A stretch of DNA of 64,000 bases from Patiria pectinifera. Lineage: Eukaryota > Echinodermata > Asteroidea > Valvatida > Asterinidae. A program made the position numbers and the translations under genes. Below the pieces are notes generated by a model. The model was not told where the DNA came from and did no database searches. It saw only the letters and a program-made list of their open reading frames with translations. Shown here in pieces: positions 2,477 to 63,911 of this stretch (positions are counted from its first letter, which is position 1; every line of letters starts with the position of its first letter). Where the stretch lies: NCBI GenBank assembly GCA_029964075.1, contig CM057134.1:21430905-21494904 (forward strand). The letters are read 5' to 3'.

Positions 2477-3905
2477 CCCGGAACTGAGTTGGTTTCGATC
2501 CTAGTGAAGCGATGACCCAGGTCATGCTTTCCTTTGTTATAGCAGCTGTGACACAAGTCAAAGTCATGACACTCCAGACATTTCCAGCGTATGCCGACGA
2601 TACCTTCCTCTGGACAGCAGTCACAATTGATATGCGGATGTTTCACTCCTAAACAAAATATTTTATGACCTTTACGAAACGGAACTTTGACGAATTGGCC
2701 TTATGCACGAGGAAGCCATTTTCGATTGTGTTCACTGAATTTATTTTACAAATTGTAAATTGTTGAATGGGATGGTGCCAGACCAGTTTGTGATTGGAAT
2801 GCACTCCAAACGTCACATTCAATTCTGGTGTAAATGTTGCTTAAAACATTAAGGTATGTTTCATCACAAAATTTTTAATTATTCACCTTAGCAGACTAGT
2901 GTAATTTGTAATGAATTTTTATTTCACTGCTTTCTTTTCTCAACTCGCAATTTCCAAAAAAGAAGAAGAGGTTACCTTGCTTTCAATTAAATAAACCCCC
3001 CAACACCACCAAAAGAAAACTCACACCAAAGGAAGATTCGATGGCTTGGTTTTCTATTTTGATAAGAAAAAGGAAGGTGTACTTCTGGTTATTTTCTTTT
3101 CAGCAAGAGTGTCCTTTTTGTATACCCGATTTCTTCTGAAAACTGTTACCCAGTTAATTTTGGTGGACATTTTGGCTCAATCTTTTTTTTAAATTCCATC
3201 TTATAATATTTGGTTCAACTAATAACATGATTCACAATCCGGTCCCGCATCTTGCCTTGGTCTGTGCATGAATTGTTAGTGCGTGTTGGTAAGGCAACCA
3301 TATGCATTCAACAATACTCTATCAACCATTAAAGCCCCAAAAAAGTAGGAAGTGGAACCGAGTGCAGCTGAAACTTAACGTGGACTTGGGGGAGGGGTAT
3401 GAGAAAACTGTTACTAAAAACCCAATATTTTTTAGCTCAATCACTGTAAATCCGCGTCTTACCTAGTTGGGCGTTATCGTAAATCCGCAGATCGTAAGTG
3501 CCTTTTTCTCCACCAGCGCGGTAGTTTGCTTTCCTGCCCGAGTCCCATCGCACCCAGACACCCTTGGCTGAAACATGACAAGTTGTGTCTCCAATAAGCA
3601 GAAAGGCTTAAAGCAGGCCAAAACTTTGAACAAGACGGGATCGAGGAATTAAAATGCCCACCTCCAATTATGTCCCTCCTCGTCGTCAGATTACAGGATT
3701 TGCTTTTGAGATTCTACAGTCTGTATTAATCCGTGGTCTGAACTACCTAAGCCGACCTAAGACATGGACATTTCTTTACTTAATGGTTACACTTACCACT
3801 CTGCGAGGACTCTGCTGGGACCACGGTCCCTACGCAGCCCTTCCCTCCGTCCTGGTCGCCCCATTTCCAGTCCGGACCTCGTACAACTCGCACCCCTATG
3901 GACAT
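2477..3905 (-). CDS. MIB2: MIB2-like gene A, 5' exons only (runs off the left edge)
   Basis: Three coding exons: 3797-3905, 3463-3567 and 2477-2648, of 109, 105 and 172 bases, the same lengths and phases as in copies B and C. The ATG at 3903-3905 opens [20 protein letters not shown], the start of the first MIB/HERC2 domain. Exon 2 completes it (VWVRWDSG ... [12 protein letters not shown]). Exon 3 encodes a whole ZZ zinc finger with CDCC, KCLEC and LCHSC cysteine pairs and KHDLGHRF. Donors are GTAAGT or GTAAGA and acceptors are CAG, CAG and TAG. The junction of exons 1 and 2 reads AESSQSAKGV, against AQAKDSVTGV in B and C, so A is the most diverged 5' end in the array. Exons 4-15 would lie left of the window. 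MIB2 ligases bind Notch ligands; whether A has RING fingers cannot be seen here. Confidence 0.88.
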
Positions 3906-61452: not shown

Positions 61453-63911
61453 TTAGCTGACTTTACAACTCACGTCTTGAGTGTTTTTCATTGCTCGTTC
61501 AAGCCTGGCAAAAACAATATTACAGTTCCATCAGGTGAAACGCTAAAATGATACAATCTTACCGTTGGCAAGTGTCTAAACCCCTTGTTTGTTTAAAACA
61601 GAAAGCTTTGAAGTGTGCACATGCATGATAATATTGAGGTAAACTTGATTCAAACTTGATACATGTACATGGGTATATTTTAAGAGGCTAACCAAAGTTG
61701 CTCCGTAGTTATACGTTGAATAATTAGACAGTTTGCTGGAGTGACAGAAGACCTTTGTCAGGGGTTATTAACTAGCAAACCTGGGCATACATTGCCTGCA
61801 TTTTCATATTAGTTGTATTTGAGTACTATTTTCATTCTACTCCTTGAAGAAAAACCTGTTCAAATTGCCGGTTATACTTGCAACCAGAACTCGATCGGAA
61901 AAGTCTCGGAAGCTGCGGGCCAACAAATTCGTGTTTATGCATGGATCACGTGATTGTGCCATGTAATTTCTGGAAGGAGTAGTGTTTTGAGGTAAAAAAA
62001 AAATCAGCTTTGTGACCCCATGATGACCTTTGACCCCAGTTTGGTCATGTGACATGTTGGGGCTGGGCTACTGATACTTTCGACAAAGTTTGGTTGAAAT
62101 AGGTGAAAATATGTAAGAGCAATAGACTCAATGTCAACGTTTTATACTAACTAACTAACGAACTAATGGAGAGACAGGATGATTTTGTTGAGCTGCTATC
62201 CCGCAGCTAAACAAACAGGCAACTAGATGGACATTTCCCTGATTTCCCACTCAGATTTGACTACAGTGCAGTATCGTTTATCTGCAAGCAACTGCGCTAC
62301 ATTTGAAGGGTTCTCTGCCAATGCACAATTGTATTGTTCGCTTCGGACTACGGATATGCCCACCTTAGCCCGTACGACCTTACAAGCTTGGACCAATTGT
62401 CCCCTTACTCTAACACCCCTCAGTGCAAACGTATTATATCCTTGGTATTGTTAATTATTTGCTATTGGACAGCAATTACGTTTTTTGAGCTTCCTTTTTC
62501 ACACTGCTTCACTCCCTCATTTCCAAAACTAGCATACGACAAATGGACCTGTAACTGATATACAAATGTACATGATGTATGGTTGCAGCGTGGACAGTCG
62601 ATATTAGCTTCCCGAGGTAGGCCTATTATTGGAAGAATTAACAAACTAGTTTGTCAACTTCACTTAACGAGGAGACTAAATATCGACTATCAACACGACA
62701 TCAACAGTGTTATATTTGTTTTTATACGTCACACATATTCACCAAAATTTTGTTGGGGTATACGCATCAATTATCTCGGCAAAACGTTGCCGTGGTATGT
62801 CTACTACTCGCCCGTATTTTGGCGGTGCACAAATACTCGCATGTGCGCTTGTTATTACACAGCAAAATTAGTGGCTGACACATTATGGTGCAATCAAGAA
62901 AACGAACAGGGTGTGTCAAAAAAGCGGAACCCAAACCCCCCAAAAATTTAAAAAAACCAATGAAGCACCAAACATAATAATAACTGGAAAGCCAATTTCA
63001 TATTTCTTTTGGATAAAAAAAGAAATACTGAAATTGCTTAATCTGTTCAAAGAATATTACTATTTAAACGCAATGACCCTAAAACCTGTGTTGTCAAAAA
63101 AGCAGTTCAATGTGTATTCTGACTGTTTTTAAGCAACAAAGAAAATGACACAGAATACTTGTTTCAACAACTGTCAACAACTGTAGTACACAATATCTTT
63201 ATTAACAACCCTGGTTAGGCAAACAATATGATTGATAAAATACACTTTTTGAAAGACAGGCCTTCAAAAGGACTTTGTTGAATATTTTTAACTTTCAAAC
63301 TGAGGTTTTATCGCTGGTGATGTTTGAAAACAATTGTGACGACGATTCTTGAGATCGCATTTTTGGACGAAAGAGGTTTTAGGGTCATTGTGTTTAAATG
63401 GTGATATTCTTTGAACGGATTAAGCAATTTCAGCATTTTTTCCATCTAAAAGTAGCTTATGAAATTGGTTTTCTAGTCATTATTAGGTTTGGTGCTACAT
63501 ATTGTTTTAAATATGAAATATCAGTTTTGGCGTTTGGGTTCCGCTTTTTTGTGACTCACCCTGTATATGGTATGGATATGCCCTTTGCTCAACTTTGTTG
63601 CCCATACGCCCTTGCTGCCTGTACATTGTACGTGAATGGGGGGACTAGGTATTCACAATGAATTTTGTGGATTATTTGAAAATAAAATAAAAAAATGATA
63701 AAAAGCAATCTCACCTTTTCTTTTGGTGGAGTTCCTTCAGTAACTTCTCAACCCCTGGATTGAGGGTGACGTCAAGAACATTGCTCCCTTTTTTATTCTT
63801 GATGTAGATGTCCGCGCCATTTTTAATAAGGTAGACTGCTATGGCAACCAGGTTTGCTCTTTGATCGGACGAACTGCCACCGTCTCCGAGCTGCTCGGCG
63901 AGCTGCAACAA
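61453..63911 (-). CDS. MIB2: MIB2-like gene D, last two coding exons (runs off the right edge)
   Basis: Exon 14 (63715-63911, 197 bases, phase 0 in, 2 bases over) encodes the last ankyrin repeat: [35 protein letters not shown]. The terminal exon (61453-61504, 52 bases) encodes [16 protein letters not shown] and TAA, identical in protein to copy C. The acceptor of exon 14 ends TAG and its donor is GTGAGA, as in C. Compared with C, exon 14 differs at only a few residues (QR-A for QK-S, I for V), whereas B differs at about a dozen, so C and D are the closest pair here. The remaining exons lie beyond the right edge. The intron between the two exons (61505-63714) lacks the LINE of copy C but carries its own foldback element at 62906-63564. 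Confidence 0.9.
62906..63564. mobile_element. Foldback MITE in gene D intron 14
   Basis: Ends are ACAGGGTG and CACCCTGT. The adjoining AAAAAAGCGGAACCCAAAC is inverted at the other end, and the arms continue for about 210 bases (AATTGCTTAATC, CAATGACCCTAAAACCT and complements). Gene C has the site without insertion near 37560-37575. No transposase. Confidence 0.8.

Follow-up and report, generated by a model that had tools for sequence, protein, structure and literature searches.

What is left of a Mind bomb (MIB) protein when its RING fingers are gone, and when were they lost? The question is raised by a 64,000-nucleotide stretch of the genome of the starfish Patiria pectinifera (contig CM057134.1; hereafter "the window"), which harbors a head-to-tail row of four MIB2-like copies (A, B, C, and D) on the minus strand; B and C lie entirely within the window, and A and D are cut off by its ends. 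The original prediction, based on the sequence alone, had described B and C as intact, RING-less genes of a young array, ending in a short tail and possibly acting as decoys, scaffolds, or adaptors. The data reported below indicate that the RING is absent, that its loss is not young, and that the tail carries a CaaX box at its very end. We assign a probability of roughly 0.6 to the following reading of the sequences: a prenyl anchor, probably a farnesyl, has taken the place of the RING in an asterozoan family of non-catalytic, membrane-tethered MIB-like binding proteins.

Gene Structure, Domain Content, and Absence of the RING

According to the splice models, B and C are tandem, intact 15-exon genes with frames open throughout, identical phases, and equal lengths of exons 1–14, as had been claimed; a shorter variant of exon 4 breaks the frame and was discarded in favor of an upstream acceptor. 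Copy C shares 96% identity over its full length with a Patiria miniata protein (P0001, 727 residues), including the same final residues, and this represents independent support for the end of the gene model. P0001 is also the best match of copy B (89% identity), and the exons of copy A are 97–100% identical to P. miniata P0005, whose protein ends in CKVS. Taken on the sequence, the anatomy of B and C as described here is, in our opinion, close to certain.

The Pfam analysis of the B and C proteins retrieved two MIB_HERC2 domains, a ZZ finger, one SH3_15 domain (REP), and ankyrin repeats; their order is that of MIB2. The N-terminal MIB_HERC2-ZZ-MIB_HERC2 (MZM) module scored above the cut-off, and all eight Cys/His positions of the ZZ finger are invariant in eight relatives. 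The statement that every expected N-terminal MIB2 part is present holds for the MZM module and the ankyrin repeats, but not for the REPs, one of which Pfam does not find in either protein. Two REPs are present in each of the 15 RING-bearing relatives examined and one in each of 11 RING-less relatives (BLAST); the retained one resembles the second REP more closely in 12 out of 15 comparisons. Using Pfam on the RING-less relatives, no REP was retrieved from P0023 and only weak ones from P0005 and P0020. The RING-bearing Acanthaster relative P0028 harbors two SH3_15 domains and three RING stretches.

Pfam did not detect a RING in the B or C protein. The search for RING patterns in all six frames of the window gave only three half-patterns, one of which is the ZZ finger of copy A; probing the window by tblastn with 99 RING tails did not retrieve any significant match (best E 0.016), and two MIB RING profiles, built from 167 RINGs each, gave best E values of 0.016 and 0.054 against all the six-frame open reading frames. 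The same profiles scored 4e-32 and 1e-28 on P0028, a held-out starfish MIB2, and single RING fragments inserted artificially into the window sequence were recovered at 6e-9, 1e-12, and 5e-19. The presence of RING exons in the flanks was rejected on the basis of patterns, tblastn, and profiles with these working controls; the whole window was scanned, and no significant profile match fell inside 28000–37700 or 58000–63700, the regions that the original prediction had singled out. Its central claim, i.e., the lack of a RING, is thus borne out. Since the defining RING feature was looked for and not found, B and C would be MIB-derived in sequence and stand outside the RING E3 ligases.

The partly shown UniRef names of the RING-less P0001, P0002, P0003, and others read "RING-type E3 ubiquitin transfera..."; such names, given to proteins without a detected RING, call for a database correction.

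Phylogeny and Age of the RING Loss

Relatives were drawn from the matches of two protein searches (the best 120 of 1058 and the best 120 of 445). Among the matches listed, the starfish P. miniata provides the closest proteins, and 19 asterozoan proteins are RING-less by pattern, belonging to P. miniata, Acanthaster planci, Asterias rubens, Asterias amurensis, and the brittle star Amphiura filiformis. Eighteen of them (P0005 was left out) were placed with B and C in a tree of 37 rows rooted on MIB1. All 18, together with B and C, fall into one clade (100/99), present in 100% of 200 bootstrap trees, in which the three Amphiura rows are sister to the starfish rows. Relative to the MIB1 outgroup, this clade lies on the MIB2 side (100/100) and outside the RING-bearing MIB2 group (100/98); the RING-bearing MIB2 proteins of Acanthaster, a crinoid, and a sea cucumber group with canonical MIB2.

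These data do not agree with the idea that the RING loss is a property of a young array: since the RING-less proteins of starfish and brittle star form one old clade, a young event is rejected by the tree. The simplest reading of these sequences would be a single RING loss before the starfish/brittle-star split, which dates to about 480 million years ago or more. As for the other echinoderm classes, a crinoid and a sea cucumber are represented in the best-120 lists by RING-bearing MIB2 and a sea urchin by a kinase-fused protein, and such lists cannot show the absence of RING-less CaaX forms in these classes. Clustering does not seem to be limited to the window, because 9 of the 10 listed P. 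miniata proteins are on a contig of 23,093,800 bases and Acanthaster P0003 and P0024 are on a contig of 917,591 bases (contigs of the same size were taken as the same contig).

Some relatives combine a MIB part with other domains. The Diadema protein P0105, long-branched and joining the RING-less clade from outside with weak support (84/62), consists of a MIB2-like part and a protein kinase domain; in the Liolophura protein P0086, the MIB2-like part is accompanied by WWE and PARP domains. A RING was not found in either of them, and the MIB front end seems to have been reused with other effectors. Moreover, P0012 (A. planci, 1233 residues), from the same clade as the window genes, bears a Death domain N-terminal of the RING-less MIB part and ends in CKVQ.

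The C-Terminal CaaX Box

The tail following the last ankyrin repeat is short, as had been stated, and divergent, but a conserved C-terminal box in it had been overlooked: it ends in C-x-[VI]-[SQ], which is CKVS in B, C, and D. Among the matches listed, the same motif ends 13 of the 19 RING-less asterozoan proteins, including P. miniata, Acanthaster, and Asterias database models, and none of the 168 RING-bearing proteins has a Cys at position −4. The endings found in the relatives are CKVS, CTVS, CVVS, CVIS, CKVQ, and CIIS, the latter in Amphiura P0233. In the entire MIB set, it ends 13 out of 198 proteins, all of them within the RING-less clade; it ends none of 111 unrelated ankyrin proteins, and it occurs twice in 9922 internal positions. 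A tail search with P0007 returned mostly unrelated ankyrin proteins and served as background only.

The tails of B and C were right-justified together with those of the 13 database proteins that carry C at −4 (six of the 19 RING-less proteins were excluded); all 15 have C at −4, V or I at −2, and S or Q at −1. The entropy is 0 at −4, 1.55 at −3, 0.57 at −2, and 0.57 at −1, and ranges from 2.4 to 3.1 bits over the 12 upstream positions. Eleven other proteins have no RING by pattern, and three of them carry a Cys at −4 (P0086, CYKY; P0271, CWLL; P0275, CVLF); none of the three fits C-x-[VI]-[SQ], and P0271 and P0275 look like odd vertebrate isoforms. This set of 11 is impure, as P0303 has a Pfam RING missed by the pattern and P0121, an ankyrin protein, has no MIB domains.

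A Cys at −4, an aliphatic a2, and a permitted X at the true C-terminus are therefore all found in B, C, D, and 13 out of 19 relatives. An X that is S or Q favors farnesyltransferase. The reading of the tail as a PDZ ligand was rejected, because PDZ ligands have a hydrophobic C-terminal residue and the last residue here is S or Q; besides CaaX, we know of no common C-terminal motif that fits the tail. On these grounds, we consider it very probable that the tail Cys is prenylated, with farnesyl as the most likely group. According to the passages available from PMC10320760 and PMC11152559, CIIS is the CaaX box of yeast Ras2 and is farnesylated by both the yeast and the human enzyme; CVVS appears there in a list of tested sequences, its result lying outside the passage.

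Selection, Conservation, and Predicted Structure

The comparison of B with C gave a nonsynonymous substitution rate (dN) of 0.061, a synonymous rate (dS) of 0.201, and a dN/dS of 0.30 (0.21–0.41 in 500 bootstraps), which argues for purifying selection on the frame, as had been proposed. The differences, however, are not mostly silent: in exons 1–14, with the codons split between exons omitted, there are 81 nonsynonymous and 74 synonymous codon differences. By part, dN/dS is 0.18 for residues 1–125, 0.30 for the second MIB_HERC2, 0.23 for the REP, and 0.37 for the ankyrin repeats. The single difference in length between B and C is one tail codon, and the CKVS codons are identical. Scoring the sites kept in at least 14 out of 15 RING-bearing MIBs over 12 RING-less proteins, 815 of 906 conserved cells (90%) are retained in the MZM module and 822 of 1075 (76%) in the ankyrin region.

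The AlphaFold2 model of P0001 has a mean predicted local distance difference test (pLDDT) score of 84.6 and a predicted template modeling score of 0.51. Its last helix spans residues 697–720 and is followed by an unstructured end (block 721–727, pLDDT 49); as modeled, this flexible end would provide the exposed terminus that a CaaX box requires. The best Foldseek matches are the MIB1 MZM-REP structures 4xi7 (with a Jagged1 N-box peptide) and 4xi6 (without it) and the MIB1 ankyrin domain 8v0e (template modeling score 0.89 by target). The superposition of the whole model on 4xi7 is loose (root-mean-square deviation 20), so only a similarity at the level of domains is claimed; such a fit would be expected from domain motion and the missing REP.

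Possible Function and Alternative Explanations

If the CaaX Cys is prenylated, the protein would be tied to the inner face of the membrane, where MIBs meet the tails of membrane proteins. There, it might bind the tails of Notch ligands, or other MIB clients, and leave them without ubiquitin, a step for which support is weaker; the bound clients would be held, or shielded from canonical MIB1/MIB2, by a membrane-tethered decoy or scaffold whose dose would be set by copy number. In the passages seen of PMC11887331, MZM and REP are the parts of MIB1 that bind the N-box and C-box of Jagged1/Delta, MZM contributing most. Those of PMC8937233 and PMC5945229 describe a RING-deleted Mib1 that still binds ligand, sequesters Delta, and acts as a dominant negative; by analogy with this behavior, a MIB-like protein that lacks the RING and is anchored in the membrane would be expected to serve there as a decoy or scaffold. 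The decoy or adaptor role suggested by the original prediction is, on this analogy, reasonable; a decoy specifically for Notch ligands is a tentative proposal, even though the strong retention of MZM in the sequences favors these ligands as clients.

The most specific scenario, which we regard as rather unlikely when taken as a whole, is that in the stem lineage of starfish and brittle stars, a Mind bomb gene lost its RING and gained a farnesyl anchor instead, which made its product a natural dominant negative tethered to the membrane, and that tandem expansion turned it into a dosable brake on the uptake of Notch ligands or of other MIB clients. If ligands are bound, starfish, a model of regeneration and development, would carry, in many copies, a brake of their own on Notch sending or on immunity, and one accessible through a single residue, the Cys. 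In the laboratory, RING-less Mind bomb serves as a dominant-negative tool, and evolution seems to have kept one, anchored to the membrane. We know of no comparable ligase-derived regulator.

Several known systems resemble these proteins in part. The MIB2 E3 ligase shares with them the two MIB_HERC2 domains around ZZ, the REP/SH3_15 domain, and the ankyrin repeats in the same order, but the starfish form has no RING, one REP rather than two, and a CaaX end, and, in the tree rooted on MIB1, is sister to the RING-bearing MIB2s, along with the weakly placed Diadema kinase fusion (84/62). MIB1 provides the best structural matches of the P0001 model (4xi7 for MZM-REP and 8v0e for ankyrin); unlike the starfish form, it has RINGs and two REPs, and its rows group apart (100/100). 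AnkB and FBXL2, the latter being another CaaX-bearing protein of the ubiquitin system, bind the core of the SCF (Skp1–Cullin–F-box) complex through an F-box and are not related to MIB. Neuralized-like 1, an E3 for Notch ligands, belongs to an unrelated family, carries an N-terminal myristate, and keeps its RING. The likeness of AnkB, a Legionella F-box/ankyrin effector, consists of a C-terminal CaaX on a ubiquitin-system substrate binder, as far as the passages available describe it, and that of Neuralized-like 1 of a lipid anchor on a Jagged1 regulator (a title cited in PMC9367165). Finally, catalysis is also gone in the engineered RING-deleted Mib1 and in zebrafish mib1 ta52b, which bind and sequester Delta according to the parts of PMC8937233 and PMC5945229 that were available; these are artificial or mutant and have no lipid anchor, in contrast to the natural, old, and CaaX-ended form of starfish. 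Searches of the openly licensed literature aimed at Mind bomb proteins that lack a RING or end in a CaaX box did not reveal any account of them among the papers listed, as far as their text was available, which is not proof of novelty; the passages of PMC5978004, PMC9367165, and PMC10970066 do not mention them.

Several observations weigh against the anchored-protein reading. The box is absent in 6 of the 19 RING-less asterozoan proteins (P0004, P0008, P0011, P0014, P0020, and P0023). Some of these models look cut short, since the alignment to C stops at residue 576 of 727 for P0008 and at 710 of 727 for P0004; a real loss of the box is nevertheless possible, and P0014, P0020, and P0023 share one subclade with the CaaX-bearing P0012. 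The dN/dS of the whole tail (0.35) is unremarkable, the last exon of B, which bears the box, relies on a non-standard GC donor, and the REP is less conserved than the other parts (133 of 231 cells, or 122 of 187 if the best-matching REP and a threshold of 13/15 are used). Of the four-letter ends, only CIIS is described as modified in the passages available; the main texts of PMC10320760, PMC11152559, and PMC9231725 yielded no mention of CKVS, CTVS, CVIS, or CKVQ. The a1 position, which is Lys rather than aliphatic in 9 of the 15 tails, speaks for the alternative that the end remains unmodified and the proteins are soluble RING-less scaffolds. The available passages of PMC9231725 report, with CIKS and CIDL, that one residue change can abolish prenylation; however, the charge sits there at a2, which is always V or I in our tails, and even CVKM is prenylated (PMC10320760, PMC9231725, in the parts seen). 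Furthermore, a free tail would not be expected to hold C, V/I, and S/Q at −4, −2, and −1 amid divergence, and we consider an unmodified end very unlikely. Even less credible is a decaying array or an artefact of the gene models, with pseudogenes or with RING exons placed elsewhere. The reverse-transcriptase pieces and the minisatellite within introns, the GC donor of B, and the extension of A and D beyond the window, with their far ends out of view, would fit it, but it is already largely refuted: B and C are fully open, with a dN/dS of 0.30 in place of the broken frames and relaxed selection of pseudogenes, the same end recurs in the P. miniata, Acanthaster, and Asterias models, and the RING profile search was negative.

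The remaining alternatives concern the clients and the fate of what is bound. In the main alternative, with the same anatomy and anchor, the clients could be innate immune or cell-death proteins, the array representing a membrane scaffold in NF-kB or death signaling, tandem-expanded as immune families often are. The Death domain of P0012, which still ends in CKVQ, favors such a role, as do the links of MIB2 to RIPK1, CYLD, and cFLIP, on which vertebrate MIB2 acts according to the passages available from PMC7815719, and to BCL10 (a title cited in PMC5978004); the presence of several copies in Patiria would also be consistent with it. On the other hand, the part best retained is MZM, the Notch-ligand module, and residues 1–125 have the lowest dN/dS between B and C, although exon 2, which lies in this part, is identical in the two copies, perhaps through gene conversion; immune clients thus represent a possibility that we hold with less than even confidence. 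Alternatively, the RING-less proteins could be adaptors that recruit a separate E3, for instance canonical MIB1/MIB2 through ankyrin or REP pairing, and promote client ubiquitination. The ankyrin region, with 76% of its conserved cells and a predicted MIB1-like fold, would suit this role, and a RING-bearing MIB2 does exist in Acanthaster (P0028); yet the artificial RING-less Mib1 inhibits rather than helps (PMC8937233, PMC5945229, as far as available), and recruitment of this kind appears unlikely.

Coordinates of the Copies and Other Features of the Window

The repeats of the window correspond to the copies, arranged as duplicated blocks (Table 1). Of the 28 introns of B and C, 27 are GT-AG, and the sole GC-AG one is intron 14 of B.

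Table 1. Positions of the MIB2-like copies and of their CaaX codons in the window.
Feature	Coordinates	Strand	Content	Basis or remark
Copy B, gene	26791-7918	minus	15 coding exons, 726 residues	splice model, open frame, matched phases
Copy B, exons 1-8	26791-26683, 25704-25600, 22938-22767, 21309-21203, 20656-20465, 19950-19829, 18858-18711, 18432-18260	minus		
Copy B, exons 9-15	17710-17559, 15572-15407, 14897-14743, 14074-13948, 13349-13143, 12637-12441, 7966-7918	minus		
Copy C, gene	55868-34795	minus	15 coding exons, 727 residues	splice model and full-length match to P0001
Copy C, exons 1-8	55868-55760, 54828-54724, 52332-52161, 50741-50635, 45543-45352, 43965-43844, 42939-42792, 41976-41804	minus		
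Copy C, exons 9-15	41464-41313, 40730-40565, 40042-39888, 38832-38706, 38511-38305, 37905-37709, 34846-34795	minus		
Copy A, exons 1-3 only	3905-3797, 3567-3463, 2648-2477 (span 2477..3905)	minus		remainder beyond window
Copy D, exons 14 and 15 only	63911-63715, 61504-61453 (span 61453..63911)	minus		upstream part beyond window
CaaX codons, copy B	7921..7932	minus	CKVS; stop TAG 7920-7918 directly after	sequence
CaaX codons, copy C	34798..34809	minus	CKVS; stop TAA 34797-34795 directly after	sequence
CaaX codons, copy D	61456..61467	minus	CKVS; stop TAA 61455-61453 directly after	sequence
GC splice donor, copy B intron 14	12439..12440	minus	AG|GCAAG	copy C has GT there

Exon 2 (25704-25600 in B and 54828-54724 in C) is 100% identical between the two copies, the identity of exons 1 and 3–14 being 82–98%; judging from the sequence, this could be due to a recent gene conversion. 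The Rfam scan did not retrieve any match at the gathering score.

Intron 9 of copy B contains a minisatellite (15921-17334) in which a 43-base unit is repeated about 33 times with 95% matches; no equivalent array was found in C, and the intron is 1986 bases long in B and 582 in C. A tandem repeat of 21/63 bases lies between C and B (27812-28007), and pieces of reverse transcriptase (RVT_1; DUF6451) are found on the plus strand at 36240-37395, within intron 14 of C. Moreover, a dispersed repeat occurs three times in the window, at 900-1742 (inverted with respect to the other two), 30578-31202, and 49321-50177.

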